Assembly (NCBI GenBank): GCA_014729775.1
Contig: WJJJ01000018.1
Coordinates: 1 to 32,544 of the forward strand
Direction of reading: 5' to 3'
DNA length: 32,544 nt
Origin: Candidatus Omnitrophota bacterium
GTDB taxonomy: Bacteria; Omnitrophota; Gorgyraeia; Duberdicusellales; 4484-171
Shown here in pieces: positions 4,644 through 32,544 of the stretch. The notes beneath the pieces are model-generated. The model worked only from the letters and a program-made list of their open reading frames with translations, made no database searches and was not told the origin of the DNA. Position numbers and translations under genes: made by a program. How positions within the stretch are numbered: position 1 is the stretch's first letter; the number at the start of each line of letters is the position of its first letter.

Positions 4644-5630
4644 GTGAAAATGAAGGCACTCGTATTATTCTCCGGAGGACTGGACAGTATCCTTGCCGCC
4701 AAGTTGATTCAGCGTCAGGGAATCGAAGTGGAGGGGGTCCATTACGTGACTCCGTTTACCTCGAAACAGCGCGGTCATCCTGAAGAGGTAGGGAGAATCG
4801 CCGAGCGCAACGGTATCCCCTGTCATATTCAGCAGATCGGCGAAGAATATTTTTCGATTATTACGCATCCGGCGTACGGAGTAGGCAAACACGCCAATCC
4901 CTGTATTGACTGCCGTATTTTTATGCTGCGCAAAGCGCAGGAGCGGATGCGGGCACAAGGCGCCGGTTTTCTTGTTACCGGGGAAGTCGTCGGGCAGCGG
5001 CCGATGACGCAGCAGAAGCACTGTCTTAACCGAATCGACAAGCACAGCGGCCTGAAAGGGTTGGTGCTCCGGCCGCTGTCGGCCGAGTTGTTGAAAGAAA
5101 CGCTTCCCGAAATACGGGGATGGGTTCGCCGAGAAGAATTATGCGCGGTATCCGGGCGGGGCCGGAAGCGGCAGTTCGCGCTGGCCGAAGAGTTCGGGGT
5201 CACGGAATATTTCCCGCCGGCAGGAGGGTGTTTGCTCACCTCTGCCGGATTCTGCAGCCGGCTGAAGGATTTGCTCGCGCACGGCAATCTGAATTTACGC
5301 AACGTGGAAGTATTGAAGACGGGACGCCATTTTCGTTTGACACCGCAGTACAAGCTCGTGGTAGCCCGTGATGAACGGGAAAACAGATATTTGGCCGGAT
5401 ACGCCCGGTACGGAGACACGGTGGTGACGGCGCGTGAGGCCGGACCGTATGCGCTCGGGATCGGAGAAGCGAATAGGGATGCGGTGAGGTTGAGCCGGAG
5501 GATCGTCGCCCGTTACGTGTCCAGGCAGAGAACGGTTCCTGTCGCGGCCGGTATCTATCCGCAGAAAGATCTGCAGGTGTGCCGGGTGAGTGCGCTGGAG
5601 GAGGACCGGCTGAAAAAATATCTTATTTGA
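4644..5630 (+). CDS. PP-loop ATPase, ThiI/MnmA-like sulfurtransferase family
   Basis: N-terminal ALVLFSGGLDSILAAKLI PP-loop; NPCIDCRIFM Cys motif; PAGGCLLT motif; GTG 4644 or ATG 4650 start. Confidence 0.75.
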   Translation: MKMKALVLFSGGLDSILAAKLIQRQGIEVEGVHYVTPFTSKQRGHPEEVGRIAERNGIPCHIQQIGEEYFSIITHPAYGVGKHANPCIDCRIFMLRKAQERMRAQGAGFLVTGEVVGQRPMTQQKHCLNRIDKHSGLKGLVLRPLSAELLKETLPEIRGWVRREELCAVSGRGRKRQFALAEEFGVTEYFPPAGGCLLTSAGFCSRLKDLLAHGNLNLRNVEVLKTGRHFRLTPQYKLVVARDERENRYLAGYARYGDTVVTAREAGPYALGIGEANRDAVRLSRRIVARYVSRQRTVPVAAGIYPQKDLQVCRVSALEEDRLKKYLI

Positions 5631-18737: not shown

Positions 18738-20573
18738 ATGAATCAGAGTTCGCGTAAAGAGCCGGTCGGGTACCGGACCATATATGTCATCCAGAAACTG
18801 CTCATGCGTGTTCCGCTTAAAGGATGTCTGTGGCTGGGGCGGACCGCGGGTACGGTGCTGTATCTGTTGCCGAAGAAAAGGCGTACCGCCTTCAGGAACG
18901 TGAAAACGGCGTTTCCCGAAATGCCTCCCCGTCAGGCTCAGGGAATCGTGAAACGATATTATCGGGATTTCGGAGTTTCGATCGTTTCCTTGTTGATCGC
19001 ACCGAGGGTGCTGGATCAGGTCGATCTCAAAGGCATAGAGCACACACTTGCTGAGGGCGGTATTCTTACTTCGGTACACGCGGGGAATTGGGAGATTTTT
19101 GGGTATGTCTTGGCCCGCGTCCGGCCCTACGCGGTACTGGCCAAACGGCAGAAAAAAACGGTATTGGACCGGTTTCTGCATACGCTGCGTACACGCGGCG
19201 GGATCCGTGTCTGCTATACACTGAAAGAAGTGGTTGCTTGTCTCAAAGAGAATTATTTGGTCGCGGTGGTAATGGACCATGGAGCGGAAAAAGACGCCGC
19301 TTATATAGATTTTTTTTCTCATCCCGTGCCTACGCCCGGCGGCGCGGTGTATCTGGCCAGGAAATTCAATAAGCAGATATTTCCTTCGTTCGGATATTAC
19401 GAGGACGGGTTCCGGATCAAAGGAAACATCGCTTCCCCGGTGAATCCGGCGGGCATTCCGGACCGGGAACTGCTCACTTCTTTGAACCGATTTTTTGAAC
19501 AACAAATACGCCTTCATCCCCATGCGTATTTATGGTATTACAAGCGTTTCAAGAGGAAAAAGGATTTGCAGGTCGTAGTGCTGGACGACGGCAAAAAAGG
19601 ACATTATAATCAGAGCAAGGCTTTTGTCTCTTTTCTGCGGGAAGAACCGGTAGAGATCAAGGTGCAGACAGTAAACGTGCGGTACCGTCAATCGGGTATG
19701 CGGCAGCTGGCAGACGGGTGTGCAATGCTCTTCGGTGCGTGGGGCGGGGAATGGTGTCTGCGCTGGTGTCTCGCTTCCCGGACATGGCACCGTCTCCAAC
19801 ACATATATGCCGATGTAGTGGTAAGCGCGGGCAATTACGCCGCGCCGGTGAACCGGTTGTTTGCTTCTTTTATCGGGGCCCGCGCGGTCACTATTCTCAA
19901 ACCGAATGTGCCCGTGAGAAAATATGATTTAGCCGTCATTCCGGAGCACGACCGGGTTTTCGACCCGGCAGTGGTGACCATTAAGGGGGCGCTCACTTAT
20001 CCTTGTGATACAGAGGAGCCGGCGCGTCAGTGCCGGGCGCATTTTGCGCTGGGACCGGAGAAGAAAATTGCGTTATGTGTCGGCGGGCCGCTGCGTTCGT
20101 CCCGCCAGTTCATGGAACGGCTGAGCCACTTCCTGGCGCAGTTGAAACAGTACGCGCCGGCGCATCAATTGCGCCTGTTGGTCACCACTTCCCGCCGGAC
20201 GCCTCCGGAAGCCGAGGAAGAAATCATCAGGCAGTTGAAAGACTTTCGGTGTACCGAAGCGTTGGTGCTCGCCCGCAGGAAAAATTTCCCGTTCGTGTTC
20301 CCGGGGTTTGTGGCATTGGCCGAGCAGGCGTTCATCAGCGGTGAGAGTATTTCGATGGTTTCGGAAGCGGCCGCGTGGGGAACTCCCTGCGCGGCGGTGA
20401 TGCTGGAATCGTTCGAAGGAAAACACCGGCTATTTCTGGAGTCGATCCGGGATGAAGTGCGGGTGCTGGAGCCTCCCTTCCATATTTCCGCACCGTCAAC
20501 ATCCCGGTGCCGTCTTTATGAGCATAACCGGAATCAGCTAAAAAAGGCGCTGAAGGAGTGCGCACGGACATGA
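18738..20573 (+). CDS. Fusion: LpxL/HtrB-type lipid A acyltransferase (N-terminal) plus ELM1-like (DUF1022-type) domain (C-terminal)
   Basis: N-terminal HAGNWE (HX4E acyltransferase motif) and VVMDHGAEKDAAYIDFF; C-terminal LQVVVLDDGKKGHYNQSKAF, SAGNYAAPVNRL and FISGESISMVSEAAAWGTPCAA typical of ELM1-like proteins; uninterrupted 611 aa. Confidence 0.82.
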   Translation: MNQSSRKEPVGYRTIYVIQKLLMRVPLKGCLWLGRTAGTVLYLLPKKRRTAFRNVKTAFPEMPPRQAQGIVKRYYRDFGVSIVSLLIAPRVLDQVDLKGIEHTLAEGGILTSVHAGNWEIFGYVLARVRPYAVLAKRQKKTVLDRFLHTLRTRGGIRVCYTLKEVVACLKENYLVAVVMDHGAEKDAAYIDFFSHPVPTPGGAVYLARKFNKQIFPSFGYYEDGFRIKGNIASPVNPAGIPDRELLTSLNRFFEQQIRLHPHAYLWYYKRFKRKKDLQVVVLDDGKKGHYNQSKAFVSFLREEPVEIKVQTVNVRYRQSGMRQLADGCAMLFGAWGGEWCLRWCLASRTWHRLQHIYADVVVSAGNYAAPVNRLFASFIGARAVTILKPNVPVRKYDLAVIPEHDRVFDPAVVTIKGALTYPCDTEEPARQCRAHFALGPEKKIALCVGGPLRSSRQFMERLSHFLAQLKQYAPAHQLRLLVTTSRRTPPEAEEEIIRQLKDFRCTEALVLARRKNFPFVFPGFVALAEQAFISGESISMVSEAAAWGTPCAAVMLESFEGKHRLFLESIRDEVRVLEPPFHISAPSTSRCRLYEHNRNQLKKALKECART

Positions 20574-22636
20574 AAGTAGTACAGATGGTGCCGCGGATGG
20601 AAGTCGGCGGAGTGGAAAAGGGGGTTGTGGATCTGGTAAAGTATTTCCGGGACGGCCGAATTGAACATCAGGTCATCAGCGGAGGCGGACAGTTAGTACC
20701 CCGCCTGCAGGAATACGGAGCGCGCCACCGCTATTCAGCGGTATACCGAAAATCTCCGTTTTCACTGGCGCTGATTCCGAAAGTACGCAGAATTCTGGTA
20801 CAGGAACGCGCAGCGATACTGCATGCCAGGTCCCGGGTGCCGGCCTGGATCGGGTTTTTCGCCACGCGCAATACCGATACCCATTTTCTTACCACCGCTC
20901 ACGGAATGTATAAAAGCCGGAGATGGAGCGAGGTCATGAGCTGGGGGAAATACGTGATCTGTCCGTCCCGGACAGTAGCCAGGCACATCAAACAGTGGTA
21001 TCAGATACCGGATGAAAAGATTATCGTGATACCCCGCTGGGTTGATCTTTCGCTGTTTTCCTGCCGTCCCTATTCGGAACGCCGCTCGAGCAATCTGATC
21101 GTGAGTGTCGGGCGGATCTCTCCGTCGAAGGGGTACGAATATCTTATCGAAGCATTTAAACGGCTGGTTCGCGAAAATTCGTACCTCACCCTGCATATCG
21201 TTGGGACGCCTGACGCGTCGAAAATGAATTATTTTCATCATCTGAAACACCTGGTCACAAGACATTCTCTGCATTACAACGTGAAATTTATCGGTTACCG
21301 GGAGGATATCCCGGGAATACTTCACGATGCCCGTATGCTCGTGGCTCCGTCGGTACAGGATGAATCCTTTGGCCGGGTTATTATTGAAGCAATGGCTGCT
21401 GGGGTTCCGGTGGTGGCTTCCCGGGTGGGGGGATATCAGGAACTTATCCGTGACGGCCGGGACGGGATATTAGTGAATCCCCGGGACAGTGAGTCTCTCG
21501 CGGGAGGCATGCGGGAAGTCCTGCAGGAATCGATGCATGCCGCATACATGACGGAACAGGCAAGAGGAAAAGTCGAGCGGGAGTACACGCTGGAGACATG
21601 TTTGGAAAAAACCGCCGGCGTGTACGAGAAGACGGTATCGGAAAAACGCATTCTTGTGATGAAAATATCGGCCCTGGGAGACTTGATCCTGGTTTTTCCG
21701 GCTTTGCGGGCGTTACGGGAACGATTCCCCCGGGCTCGGATCACCCTGCTGACGCACAGAAAATTCACTCCACTGCTGTTCGAATGTCCCTATGTGGACG
21801 AAGTGGTCAGCGTCGAAGATCGATATCGTCGTCTCGGATATATCGTGAAATTAAGCGGGATGCTCAGGAGGAAATCATATGATTACGTGATTGATCTGCA
21901 GAATAACCGCGCTTCGCATCTGATCGCGTTTCTCACGTTTCCCCGGTATTCCTTCGGGTATCGACGACGTTTGGGATTTTTGTTGAGCCGGCCGGCGGAA
22001 ATTACGCGCAGTGATGACCCAATGACTTCGCAGGAAAGAATATTACGTTATTTAGGGGTCACGCTCAAATCAAAAGAGCTTCTTTTTTGGGAGACAGGCG
22101 AAAAGCCTTCTCTTCATTTACCCCAAGGGAATTTTATCGGGGTCAATGTGGGGGCGTCCAGGAAATGGGAAACAAAAAACTGGCCTGTGGATTCTATCGT
22201 GAAGCTTATCCGGCTGATCTACAAGTACCTTCCCTCATATAAAGTCGCGTTGCTCGGCGACCGTGATTCCTGCGCCCGCGCGCGGCAGATCGATGCGGCG
22301 GTGTTCCCTCAGCCGTTTGATCTGTGCGGAAAGACGCAGCTGGGGGATCTTCCCTCGCTATTGAGACAACTGGATGCCTGCGTGACGCCCGACACCGCGA
22401 CGCTGCATTTGGCTCGTGCCTGCGGAGTTCCGGTAGTGGCACTGTTCGGTCCAACGGACCCCCGGCGACATACCGTCGCGTCATCGGAATTGCGCGTGCT
22501 GGAGGGGCAGACCGAATGCCGGCATTGCTATCGTCCGCGCTGCGGAGCCGAGGATCCTGGTCAATGCATGCACAGCATCGAGCCGAAAGCCGTGTTCCAG
22601 GAACTGAAATCACTGCTTTCGGCGGCAGGGAAGTGA
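20570..22636 (+). CDS. Fusion glycosyltransferase: GT4 domain (N-terminal) plus GT9/heptosyltransferase-like domain (C-terminal)
   Basis: N-terminal VGRISPSKGYEYLIEAF and SFGRVIIEAMAAGVPVVASRVGGYQELI (GT4); C-terminal RILVMKISALGDLILVFPALRALRERFP and TPDTATLHLARACGVPVVALFGPTDPRRH (GT9); continuous ORF. Confidence 0.88.
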   Translation: MKVVQMVPRMEVGGVEKGVVDLVKYFRDGRIEHQVISGGGQLVPRLQEYGARHRYSAVYRKSPFSLALIPKVRRILVQERAAILHARSRVPAWIGFFATRNTDTHFLTTAHGMYKSRRWSEVMSWGKYVICPSRTVARHIKQWYQIPDEKIIVIPRWVDLSLFSCRPYSERRSSNLIVSVGRISPSKGYEYLIEAFKRLVRENSYLTLHIVGTPDASKMNYFHHLKHLVTRHSLHYNVKFIGYREDIPGILHDARMLVAPSVQDESFGRVIIEAMAAGVPVVASRVGGYQELIRDGRDGILVNPRDSESLAGGMREVLQESMHAAYMTEQARGKVEREYTLETCLEKTAGVYEKTVSEKRILVMKISALGDLILVFPALRALRERFPRARITLLTHRKFTPLLFECPYVDEVVSVEDRYRRLGYIVKLSGMLRRKSYDYVIDLQNNRASHLIAFLTFPRYSFGYRRRLGFLLSRPAEITRSDDPMTSQERILRYLGVTLKSKELLFWETGEKPSLHLPQGNFIGVNVGASRKWETKNWPVDSIVKLIRLIYKYLPSYKVALLGDRDSCARARQIDAAVFPQPFDLCGKTQLGDLPSLLRQLDACVTPDTATLHLARACGVPVVALFGPTDPRRHTVASSELRVLEGQTECRHCYRPRCGAEDPGQCMHSIEPKAVFQELKSLLSAAGK

Positions 22637-27686: not shown

Positions 27687-27735
27687 AATGCGCGAGAATA
27701 GATAACCGGCATGAGTGGGGTTGGAGAATATTTTT

Positions 27736-27811
27736 CGGGAGGTAGCGTAGTTTGGCTTAGCGCGTCTGCTTTGGGAGCAGAAGACCGGGAGTTCGAATCT
27801 CCCCCTCCCGA
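27736..27811 (+). tRNA. tRNA-Pro (anticodon TGG)
   Basis: CGGGAGG/CCTCCCG acceptor, TCTGC-TTTGGGA-GCAGA anticodon arm, GGGAG-TTCGAAT-CTCCC T-arm; CCA not encoded. Confidence 0.93.
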
Positions 27812-27848
27812 TGTTCCTGAACGAAGCGAATAACTTGAGCGTAGTGAC

Positions 27849-27925
27849 GCGCCCGTAGCTCAATCGGATAGAGCATCGGCCTTCTAAGCCGAGGGTTGCA
27901 GGTTCGATCCCTGCCGGGCGCGCCA
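27849..27925 (+). tRNA. tRNA-Arg (anticodon TCT)
   Basis: GCGCCCG/CGGGCGC acceptor, TCGGC-CTTCTAA-GCCGA anticodon arm, GCAGG-TTCGATC-CCTGC T-arm, encoded CCA. Confidence 0.95.
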
Positions 27926-29246: not shown

Positions 29247-29747
29247 ATGGCAAACGAACGATTGTCGAATTTGATCGGGGAATATCGCAGAGTGATTCAT
29301 ATCCTTCGCACTATCCGAGGGGATCTTCTTCGAATGGAGACCGCACTGGAAGTCGCCAAGGGCTTAAAGCGTGAACTGAACGGAGAGCTGGAACGGGCGC
29401 AACGGTCGGGGAAACAGGAGCGGGTTGCTTTCTGGAAAGAAGTAATTGAAGAGTATTTCTGCCGTGACGAAGGATTTCCTACCGAGCAAGAATTGAAATC
29501 GGCGAGGGAGGCGGTGGAGGCCAAGTACAAAGAGGAAATGTATTATAACCGCAAACTGAAAGTGATCGGCAAGTTGCTGGGGAGCCGCGAAGTCGAGCTG
29601 TTGGAGAATTACGACCGGAAAAATCTGTATATGGGAAACGACCAATCGTCCCGCCGGCACGCTCACGCGGTCGACGAGGAGGAAGAGGAGAAGGCCTTTC
29701 AGGAAGAGAAGGAAAGAAAGAAACGGGTGGCGTTCGATAAAATGTGA
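29247..29747 (+). CDS. Hypothetical coiled-coil/charged protein
   Basis: ORF with SD-like aggggag upstream, heptad-like charged helices, Glu/Lys-rich C-terminus; adjacent to the AsmA-like gene. Confidence 0.6.
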   Translation: MANERLSNLIGEYRRVIHILRTIRGDLLRMETALEVAKGLKRELNGELERAQRSGKQERVAFWKEVIEEYFCRDEGFPTEQELKSAREAVEAKYKEEMYYNRKLKVIGKLLGSREVELLENYDRKNLYMGNDQSSRRHAHAVDEEEEEKAFQEEKERKKRVAFDKM

Positions 29748-29762
29748 GATGGCCAGGGCGCC

Positions 29763-29791
29763 TTTACACCGCGAAAATTTTTTGGTATAAG
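29763..29791 (+). promoter_or_regulatory. Candidate sigma70-type promoter of tRNA-His
   Basis: TTTACA (29763-29768), 17 nt spacer, TATAAG (29786-29791). Confidence 0.6.
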
Positions 29792-29838
29792 AAAACGCAT
29801 GCCTCAGAGAAGTGTTCATTGATCGAATCTTTCGCGAT

Positions 29839-29916
29839 GGTGGATGTAGCTCAGCTAGGCAGAGCACTTGGTTGTGGCCCAAGAGGTCGCGGGTTCAAAT
29901 CCCGTCATCCACCCCA
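29839..29916 (+). tRNA. tRNA-His (anticodon GTG), with encoded G-1 and CCA
   Basis: G+GTGGATG/CATCCAC+C acceptor, CTTGG-TTGTGGC-CCAAG anticodon arm, CGGG-TTCAAAT-CCCG T-arm, CCA at 29914-29916. Confidence 0.95.
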
Positions 29917-30205
29917 ACCATTTTATTAATGGGAGAGAGAAACAGCGTAAGCGGGGCCTTTTCGGAATGCGTACAGGCGATGCCGTCTATTTTGCTCGAT
30001 ATTTTCCGCTGGAAGGAAAAACGCATGCAGCGGCATTGTGCCATTGTGCGTGCAGGCGCGGTTTTCGGGGGAAAGAATTTTATCAGCTGTATCCGATTCT
30101 ATTTTGAACAATCGGACAATTCTTCCTGCAGTGCCGCGCGTCTGCGGTGAGTAGACCGCCAGGGAAACCGGATTGCGTAGGTGTTCTTATTCTCCTCAAT
30201 TTTTC

Positions 30206-30371: not shown

Positions 30372-30462
30372 GTGTCCGACAAGAGCAAACTCCGGGAAAC
30401 CGGGGGGCGCAAAGCTATGGACCTAAAAGGCATATGCCTTATGGTTGCCAGGCTGCCGTGGA
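30372..30462 (+). ncRNA. GEMM-I class cyclic dinucleotide riboswitch aptamer, with A at the Vc2 G20-equivalent (GEMM-Ib/cGAMP-like)
   Basis: GAGCAAAC-TCCGG-GAAA-CCGGG-GGGCGCAAAGC core; near-canonical GAAA tetraloop receptor CCTAAA...TATGG; 3' GGTTGCCAGGCTGCCG; matches Vc2 layout GGGCAAACC...GAAA...GGGACGCAAAGCC...CCUAA. Confidence 0.88.
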
Positions 30463-30545: not shown

Positions 30546-30609
30546 AGGGACGATCGGGCTTCGATAAGGATGCAACACAGGAGGAGGCGGGGAGATGTAC
30601 CAGGGAGGA

Positions 30610-31209
30610 ATGAGTATGTGGAAACAAATTATGGTGTTAGTGATAGGGATCGGAACTTTTTCCGCCGCGGGTTATTTTTATCATTCGATGCATACGGCCC
30701 AAGAAATCCCGCTGCAGCGGGTGTTTGAGATGGACGATCTTCACCGGGAGAAAGGACGTATTCTTGTTGACTCTTCGGTTCAGGAAGAATGGGGCAGCGC
30801 GCCAAAAGTCAATCGATTCTCGGTCAGGGTGGAATTTGTCGATCAGGCATCGGACTCCGCCGATTTTTTCGTTGATTCACAGGGTGTTGACTGTGCGTAC
30901 ACTACCCGTGTCGCGATGGAAGGCGCAGACAGGTATCGGAGCCAGGTTTCTTCCCAACGCGGTCAGATTTCGAAAGCGGACATGGACAGGATGGTGTGTG
31001 TCGCGCGTTTTCTGTTCGAACTGCTGGATAAGGAAGGGGATGTGGTCGTGAGAGAAACAACGGATCCTTATCGTTTACGCTTCGGAAGAACAAATAACGT
31101 GCGGGGGACTCTTCGGAATCTGTTCTCGGCAGAGCAGGCAAAATCCGTGCAGCGCGTAGTTCCTTCGATGATTATCGAACAGGTCAGCACCCGTCCCCCC
31201 GATCTTTAG
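30610..31209 (+). CDS. Hypothetical protein with N-terminal membrane anchor/signal, under riboswitch control
   Basis: SWKQIMVLVIGIGTFSAAGYFYHSM hydrophobic N-terminus; no family recognised; start ambiguous (ATG 30595, 30610 or 30616), gggagga precedes 30610. Confidence 0.7.
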   Translation: MSMWKQIMVLVIGIGTFSAAGYFYHSMHTAQEIPLQRVFEMDDLHREKGRILVDSSVQEEWGSAPKVNRFSVRVEFVDQASDSADFFVDSQGVDCAYTTRVAMEGADRYRSQVSSQRGQISKADMDRMVCVARFLFELLDKEGDVVVRETTDPYRLRFGRTNNVRGTLRNLFSAEQAKSVQRVVPSMIIEQVSTRPPDL

Positions 31210-31423: not shown

Positions 31424-31741
31424 TCAGAAGCTGGATCCGCCGAATCCAGAGTTGCGGCCGCCGCCGAAGTTGTCTCTGCGCGGCTGCATTTTGCGAGCTT
31501 TGTTGACCGTCAGTTTTCTTCCGGCAAGCTCCTGTTCGTTCAGGGCTTCGATCGCTTTCTGCGCTTCTTCCTCTGTGTCGAATTCCGCGAAACCGAACCC
31601 TTTTGATCTACTTGTGTATTTGTCCCGGATAATTTTTACGTCCTGGACGTTGATGCCTTTTTCCTCGATGAACCCTTTCAGGTCTGATTCGTTGGTGTCG
31701 TAATTCAAGTTGCCGATGTACAGTTTTTTCTGTTCTTCCAT
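31424..31741 (-). CDS. RRM-domain RNA-binding protein with Gly-rich C-terminus
   Basis: KLYIGNLNYDTNESDL (RNP2) and SKGFGFAEF (RNP1); C-terminal DNFGGGRNSGFGGSSF; SD aaggaga upstream. Confidence 0.95.
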   Translation of the reverse strand: MEEQKKLYIGNLNYDTNESDLKGFIEEKGINVQDVKIIRDKYTSRSKGFGFAEFDTEEEAQKAIEALNEQELAGRKLTVNKARKMQPRRDNFGGGRNSGFGGSSF

Positions 31742-31884
31742 TTAAGATTCTCCTTTTACACTTGTCCGGAAATCCGTTAACGTAGACACTTGACCCTCTT
31801 TTCCGGCGAAATACCGCTTTTTGGCGCCGTCTCGGATATGCCGCCGGACTATTTCAATGAACACGCGCCATTCTCTGGTTTCAA

Positions 31885-31912
31885 CCAACTATATCATAAT
31901 TAATGGGTTTGG
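31885..31912 (-). promoter_or_regulatory. Candidate promoter of the RRM gene
   Basis: On minus strand: TTGCCA, 16 nt, TATAGT (ttgccaaacccattaattatgatatagt). Confidence 0.45.
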
Positions 31913-32007
31913 CAAGAGAAATTTCAAGGGCCCGGGAAGGTTGATAATTCCGCCGCGCATGATAGGATAAAGAGGTAGCATTTTGTTCGTTTGACCACTT
32001 CCTGGCT

Positions 32008-32544
32008 ATGGGACTTATTGAATTCTTCAAATCGCTGTTCACCCCGGCAGGGTCGCGCCGGCCTGCCGGGCGTCCGCGACGGCGGAGAACGACGCCCCGC
32101 TCCCGGCGTTCCGCGCGTACTCCTCGGTCCGGACGCAGGACTTCTTCCCGCTCCGGCGGTGTGAGGAAGTCTTCGCGAAAGTCTTCTCCAAAATCGGGAT
32201 CGGCGCGGCGGGTGTCCTCTACGTCGTCTTCCCGGCGCAGGCGGGCTTCCGGACGTTCTCCATCGACACCCAAAAAAACGAAATCGGGCCGGCCACGGAA
32301 GAAACCCGTCTCAAAGGCTTCCTCCCGGGCCGCACCCGCGAAGCGTCGTTCCGGGGTTCCGCGGGCCAAAAGAAAATCCTCTTCTCCGGCAAAGATTTCT
32401 TCAGGCCGCGCGCGTCCAAAAAGAACCCCTTCTTCGCCGGCCCCCGGCGGGGCGGTAACGCATTATTTCCCCAAGATTTCGGTCGCGGTGGTGAAACTAA
32501 AAAAAGAAATACGTATCGGAGAAAAAATCAGGATCAAAGGAAAA
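32008..32544 (+). CDS. Arg/Ser/Lys/Pro-rich disordered region fused to EF-Tu domain 2-like module (3' truncated by window edge)
   Basis: Open frame from ATG 32008 to window end (179 codons, no stop): MGLIEFFKSLFTPAGSRRPAGRPRRRRTTPRSRRSARTPRSGRRTSSRSGG...GGAVTHYFPKISVAVVKLKKEIRIGEKIRIKGK; the end resembles small 'translation elongation factor-like' proteins. Absent from the supplied ORF track. Confidence 0.72.
   Translation, partial: MGLIEFFKSLFTPAGSRRPAGRPRRRRTTPRSRRSARTPRSGRRTSSRSGGVRKSSRKSSPKSGSARRVSSTSSSRRRRASGRSPSTPKKTKSGRPRKKPVSKASSRAAPAKRRSGVPRAKRKSSSPAKISSGRARPKRTPSSPAPGGAVTHYFPKISVAVVKLKKEIRIGEKIRIKGK

Follow-up and report, generated by a model that had tools for sequence, protein, structure and literature searches.

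The window analysed here is the complete contig C13 (32,544 bp) of a 1.65 Mb genome that is 94% complete in 34 contigs, and its end truncates a gene for a protein with three parts: a predicted amphipathic helix, a long basic tail and the beginning of a β-barrel (Table 1). As the original prediction held, the frame opens with the ATG at 32008 on the forward strand and runs through 179 codons without a stop into the contig end. The translation begins MGLIEFFKSLFTP, continues through a stretch of R, S, K, P, A, G and T, and arrives at VTHYFPKISVAVVKLKKEIRIGEKIRIKGK. The frame from ATG 32008 is open in just 0.15% of 2000 base shuffles, and each of 2000 shuffles of the tail contains D, E or a stop codon. 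The ORF is a genuine gene, beyond chance. A 162-aa ORF on the minus strand (31881-32369) was rejected as an antisense shadow cast by the R/S-rich frame, the conservation sitting in the plus frame.

Table 1. Features at the end of the window and on contig C10 of the same genome (G000).
Feature	Coordinates	Strand	Basis
Divergent 105-aa single-RRM protein	31424..31741	-	RRM_1 E 5.5e-21
Possible divergent promoter TTGCCA-16-TATAGT, RRM gene	31888..31915	-	consensus match only
Possible sigma-70-like promoter TTGATA-16-TAGGAT, ~40 nt upstream of ATG	31941..31968	+	consensus match only
Tailed barrel gene	32008..32544 and G000:C10:3-143	+	translation, barrel profile search, C10 reading
N-terminal amphipathic helix MGLIEFFKSLFT	32008..32043	+	predicted helix, motif in relatives
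Basic disordered tail, 135 residues	32044..32448	+	composition, shuffles, structure prediction
U32_C / EF-Tu-D2-like barrel, first 32 residues (profile positions 4-35 of 81)	32449..32544	+	barrel profile

The remainder of the barrel can be located in the same assembly. A barrel profile of 81 positions, built from an alignment of relatives and run against the contigs of the source genome, matches three places: the end of C13, the start of contig C10, and a 410-aa U32 protein on contig C34. The end of C13 covers profile positions 4-35 and the first bases of C10 cover positions 39-79, with about 7 nt absent between the two. The C10 piece reads FTQLVESMQMDHEAVLVAKKGNEVGLQVARPVKEGDLMYSLDRKKK, ends in DLMYSLD followed by TAA, and corresponds to the last 46 codons and stop of the gene; its three best matches among the fetched relatives all belong to the tailed form, in the same bacterial family. 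C13 and C10 show no overlap at their ends, and their adjacency therefore rests on the complementary domain halves and on orientation. Because an N-terminal half lies at a contig end and a C-terminal half at a contig start, in compatible orientations and with no further halves in the genome, a single split gene is by far the simplest reading, a strong inference if not a proof, and its stop almost certainly sits at G000:C10:141-143. Instead of a stop or frameshift right past the window, or a missing domain, C10 thus supplies the missing part of the domain and an ordinary stop. It is next to inconceivable that the gene is an artefact, whether an assembly chimera or a false reading frame in low-complexity, GC-rich DNA that happens to run into a domain fragment. 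The ORF does stop at the contig edge and its tail is of low complexity, but the C-terminal half and stop are found at the start of C10, a promoter-like site lies upstream, and the identical plan recurs in dozens of independent genomes, a conservation that refutes this explanation.

Other loci in the window were noted in passing. A c-di-GMP-I riboswitch (RF01051, 77.5 bits) at 30374-30460 (+) lies upstream of a 204-aa ORF (30595-31209) that has a membrane-anchor-like segment at its start and no Pfam match above cut-off. A single ORF at 18738-20573 (+) is an unusual fusion, with a lipid A acyltransferase domain ahead of an ELM1-like one, while 20558-22636 (+) encodes a fusion of a GT4 glycosyltransferase and a GT9 heptosyltransferase amid a run of LPS-core genes. 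At 4644-5630 (+), a ThiI/MnmA-like HUP domain is joined to an NFACT-R_2 RNA-binding domain. Genes for tRNA-Pro(tgg), tRNA-Arg(tct) and tRNA-His(gtg) occupy 27735-27925 and 29840-29916 (+), and the short ORFs listed across 29744-30150 overlap the gene for tRNA-His and are probably not real.

The β-barrel spans about 80 residues and escapes standard annotation, as the window fragment had no match in Pfam or NCBIfam scans. Across 29 members of the family, GTP_EFTU_D2 (PF03144) is matched weakly in 19 (best E 9e-7) and Peptidase_U32_C (PF16325) in four at E <= 0.01, the score given for a single member lying below the Pfam curated cut-off. PF16325 finds no match in the source genome, U32 protein included, so the model is too strict here. 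In hhalign comparisons, the barrel aligns with the last 85 residues of 11 U32 proteins from Omnitrophota, all of the same bacterial family as the window, over 84 columns (E 1e-20, probability 99.3), and with EF-Tu domain 2 of related genomes over 44 columns (E 8e-4, probability 25), a comparison whose power is lowered by its six-sequence EF-Tu alignment. The barrel profile is matched over the full barrel by all 15 of the U32 proteins examined, and the 410-aa U32 protein of the source genome (PF01136 E 2e-76) matches it at E 3.2e-14; searching PDB sequences with the U32 protein returned no match. When the window protein is folded alone, a second helix is drawn at residues 155-167, of low confidence and not believed, the cut barrel being unfit for modelling from the window piece. 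The structural model is instead that of a tail-less relative from Patescibacteria (pLDDT 72.7, pTM 0.58), with 44% identity across the part present in the window. With this model, Foldseek places PDB 4he6 (E 2e-4, TM 0.75) and 4he5, which show the C-terminal domain of a U32 protein from Geobacillus, ahead of EF-Tu and IF2; the fold is also carried by SelB and eIF5B, translation factors like these two. As judged from the profiles and the model, the barrel is U32_C-like within a wider EF-Tu-D2-like fold, and its nearest kin is the U32 C-terminal domain. The earlier assignment to an EF-Tu domain 2 module is consequently right about the fold class, to which both the PF03144 matches and the Foldseek ranking point, but has to yield to the U32 C-terminus in the matter of closest relationship.

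Among proteins that carry this domain, TrhP of E. coli combines PF01136 with PF16325 and is needed for 5-hydroxyuridine at tRNA position 34, and the essential residues tested in TrhP fall in the catalytic domain (PMC6599085). For U32_C itself, the literature searched yielded no measured affinity for RNA. The PF01136 catalytic domain has no match in the window ORF or in six relatives, and a GTP-binding domain is absent from a protein that is made up of helix, tail and barrel; the true, intact EF-Tu of the source genome is encoded on contig C27. Because both catalytic domains are absent, the tailed protein is neither EF-Tu nor a U32 enzyme.

The same plan recurs in related genomes, where N-terminus, basic tail character and barrel are all found again. 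Of the 58 nearest genomes, 47 have a match (E <= 1) to the C-terminal 33 residues of the window fragment, and in 35 of the 58 the match sits in an open frame of 112-331 aa. The statement that such barrel proteins usually lack a tail does not hold in Omnitrophota, where the tailed form is the common one, these 35 genomes having frames of tail-bearing length. Of 237 sampled Omnitrophota genomes, 196 match the barrel profile, a count that includes U32 and tail-less copies. Three architectures are present among the extracted proteins, namely tail plus barrel, a bare 84-aa barrel, and a U32 enzyme ending in the barrel; starts of relatives were set at the first in-frame ATG, and since loci were sampled partly for long frames the ratio of tailed to tail-less forms is not a census. 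A tree of the barrels parts the U32 copies from the free-standing ones without resolving tailed members from tail-less ones. The hallmark of the tailed family, a THYF-x-K barrel that comes after a basic tail and closes with a VY-type strand, is present in the window gene, the second half of the barrel being on C10. In a spot check outside Omnitrophota, one Patescibacteria genome carries the tail-less form and three Bacteroidota genomes carry U32-length copies only; a plasmid search for the barrel family gave no match. We found no literature on the tailed barrel family among open-access papers, and the combination of helix, tail and barrel is undescribed in these papers and in the family libraries searched, each part being known already. 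The tailed barrel family is thus uncharacterised and phylum-wide in Omnitrophota, a new architecture assembled from known parts.

The tail comprises 135 residues (R 34, S 33, P 17, K 14, A 13, G 11, T 8), 36% of which are K or R and none D or E, in keeping with the R/S/K/P/G/A/T-rich composition first described, and it is unstructured in the prediction, with a pLDDT of ~50 that is low throughout. In this it shows the feature of bacterial histone H1-like proteins, a long disordered basic stretch rich in K, R, P and A. Sampled tailed proteins have a median of 46% K+R and 2% D+E over tail lengths of 16-243, the tail in the window being among the longest and most Arg/Ser-rich of the family. The ratio Arg/(Arg+Lys) climbs with local GC (rho 0.33, p 0.002, n=85, shared ancestry uncorrected). 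One relative (L015:1354-2337, minus strand) has a 243-residue Gly/Arg/Gln/Pro-rich tail replacing the lysine-rich one, in a stretch of 60% GC. Across the family the basic character is constant while sequence and length drift, with the Arg share tracking GC, a pattern that fits selection on charge.

A basic tail of this kind would suit DNA or polyphosphate as well as RNA. The protein could be a histone H1-like nucleoid protein, comparable to AlgP, Hc2 and PhaF, with a tail that condenses or coats DNA and a barrel that serves as a structural or dimerising cap. The composition of the tail agrees with that of bacterial H1-like tails, the 154-aa KPAA-rich disordered part of AlgP binds DNA (PMC9239181), and tail length varies here as it does in Hc2 (PMC2848022). 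We nevertheless consider a nucleoid role unlikely, since the fold family of the barrel serves translation and RNA modification and is not known for DNA binding, and the tail comes before the domain here, without clean repeats. By analogy, the tail could also have polyphosphate as a ligand, since the H1-like AlgP associates with polyphosphate granules (PMC9239181).

The original prediction overlooked that the tailed form has a conserved amphipathic N-terminus. Residues 3-11 are predicted to form a helix with a block pLDDT of 81, the best confidence in the chain for the window protein folded alone, and the hydrophobic moment of the N-terminal 11-mer exceeds that of most shuffles. The N-terminus reads MGLIEFFKSLF here and MGFFDFWKKLF, MALFDFLKTIF or MRLFDFLKELF, among others, in relatives, and an amphipathic 11-mer is kept at this position in most tailed members of the window's bacterial family. 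This conservation, together with the hydrophobic moment and the confident helix, is consistent with a tether, in which the helix would anchor the protein to a membrane or granule surface while the basic linker keeps RNA, ribosomes, DNA or polyphosphate close, on the model of the phasin PhaF, which is thought to link PHA granules and the nucleoid (PMC9239181). Many tailed members in other Omnitrophota families, however, begin MALKKK- or MPAKKK- and have no helix, so anchoring cannot be the core function, and as an account of the family we hold tethering to be improbable.

The gene neighbourhood is variable. The adjacent RRM gene had been read as a hint of function, but in 20 regions of about 2-16 kb each around tailed genes of relatives the same RRM type is met once, 6.4 kb away, and the neighbourhood therefore lends no support to a joint role with the RRM protein. 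No convincing conserved neighbour emerged from the relatives' regions; a DbpA-type DEAD helicase lies directly downstream of the tailed gene in two genomes only. The tail-less 84-aa paralogue, for its part, keeps a fixed position in several genomes of the window's family, with lpxI on one side and a SpoIID/TPR gene on the other (L098:5950-6201, minus strand; L105:6004-6255, plus strand; also L099, L100 and L111), a setting that hints at a function of its own close to lipid A synthesis.

The direct homology of the barrel to the C-terminal barrel of the U32 protein in the same genome raises the idea of a split U32 helper, a free copy of the barrel that brings an RNA substrate to the U32 catalytic subunit. 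Patterns of co-occurrence weaken it. No U32 gene was recognised among the scanned neighbours of relatives, and tailed genes occur in genomes with no detected U32 domain (the single-contig G001, and also G003, G010, G011, G014 and G024), absences that are soft because the genomes surveyed are mostly MAGs. Since several genomes with the tailed gene are without a detectable U32 domain, the tailed protein is not an obligate U32 partner, and a helper of this kind seems very unlikely.

The reading that we prefer, and to which we give about an even chance, is that of an accessory factor associated with RNA or the ribosome, in which the tail binds RNA and the barrel contacts tRNA, the ribosome or a partner. 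The tail would bind RNA, probably rRNA or tRNA, through its charge, and the barrel would add a more specific contact to a protein partner, tRNA or the ribosome. In members that have it, the N-terminal helix may contribute a further contact with a membrane or protein, and the whole, associated with RNA or the ribosome, would serve as an accessory factor with no catalytic part. A nucleic-acid-binding role is plausible, and RNA binding is probable because the charged arm is joined to a barrel that otherwise ends RNA-modifying enzymes; the lack of conserved gene neighbours counts against the RNA reading, as does a tail that would fit DNA or polyphosphate too. In a bolder version, a freed U32-type barrel, an H1-like RNA arm and a membrane helix confined to one lineage would form a phylum-wide translation accessory factor that tethers ribosomes or RNA to the membrane, which strikes us as distinctly doubtful. 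Whatever the role, use of the U32 C-terminal barrel alone makes its binding target testable on a small protein outside the enzyme, and an H1-like tail on a translation-type fold helps to ask if bacterial tails of this type serve RNA, DNA or polyphosphate. The family is also widespread in a large, mostly uncultured phylum while having no name or function in the libraries and papers searched.

Compared with known systems, the barrel is most like the U32 C-terminal domain (PF16325; PDB 4he5/4he6; TrhP/YegQ), which it resembles by profile, by fold and over the full domain length. In contrast to U32 proteins, it stands free of the PF01136 catalytic domain and follows a basic disordered tail. With EF-Tu domain 2 (PF03144) it shares the fold class and, in those 19 of 29 members, weak sequence similarity, but it lacks the GTPase domain and gives the weaker hhalign match. 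The H1-like tails of AlgP, PhaF and Hc2 have in common with the present one a long disordered stretch of variable length rich in K, R, P, A and S, whereas the folded partner differs, the tail precedes the domain, and the residues that dominate are Arg and Ser here and Lys in most relatives. Finally, the tail-less 84-aa proteins of Omnitrophota and Patescibacteria share the barrel with the tailed form, which differs from them in its tail and N-terminal helix.
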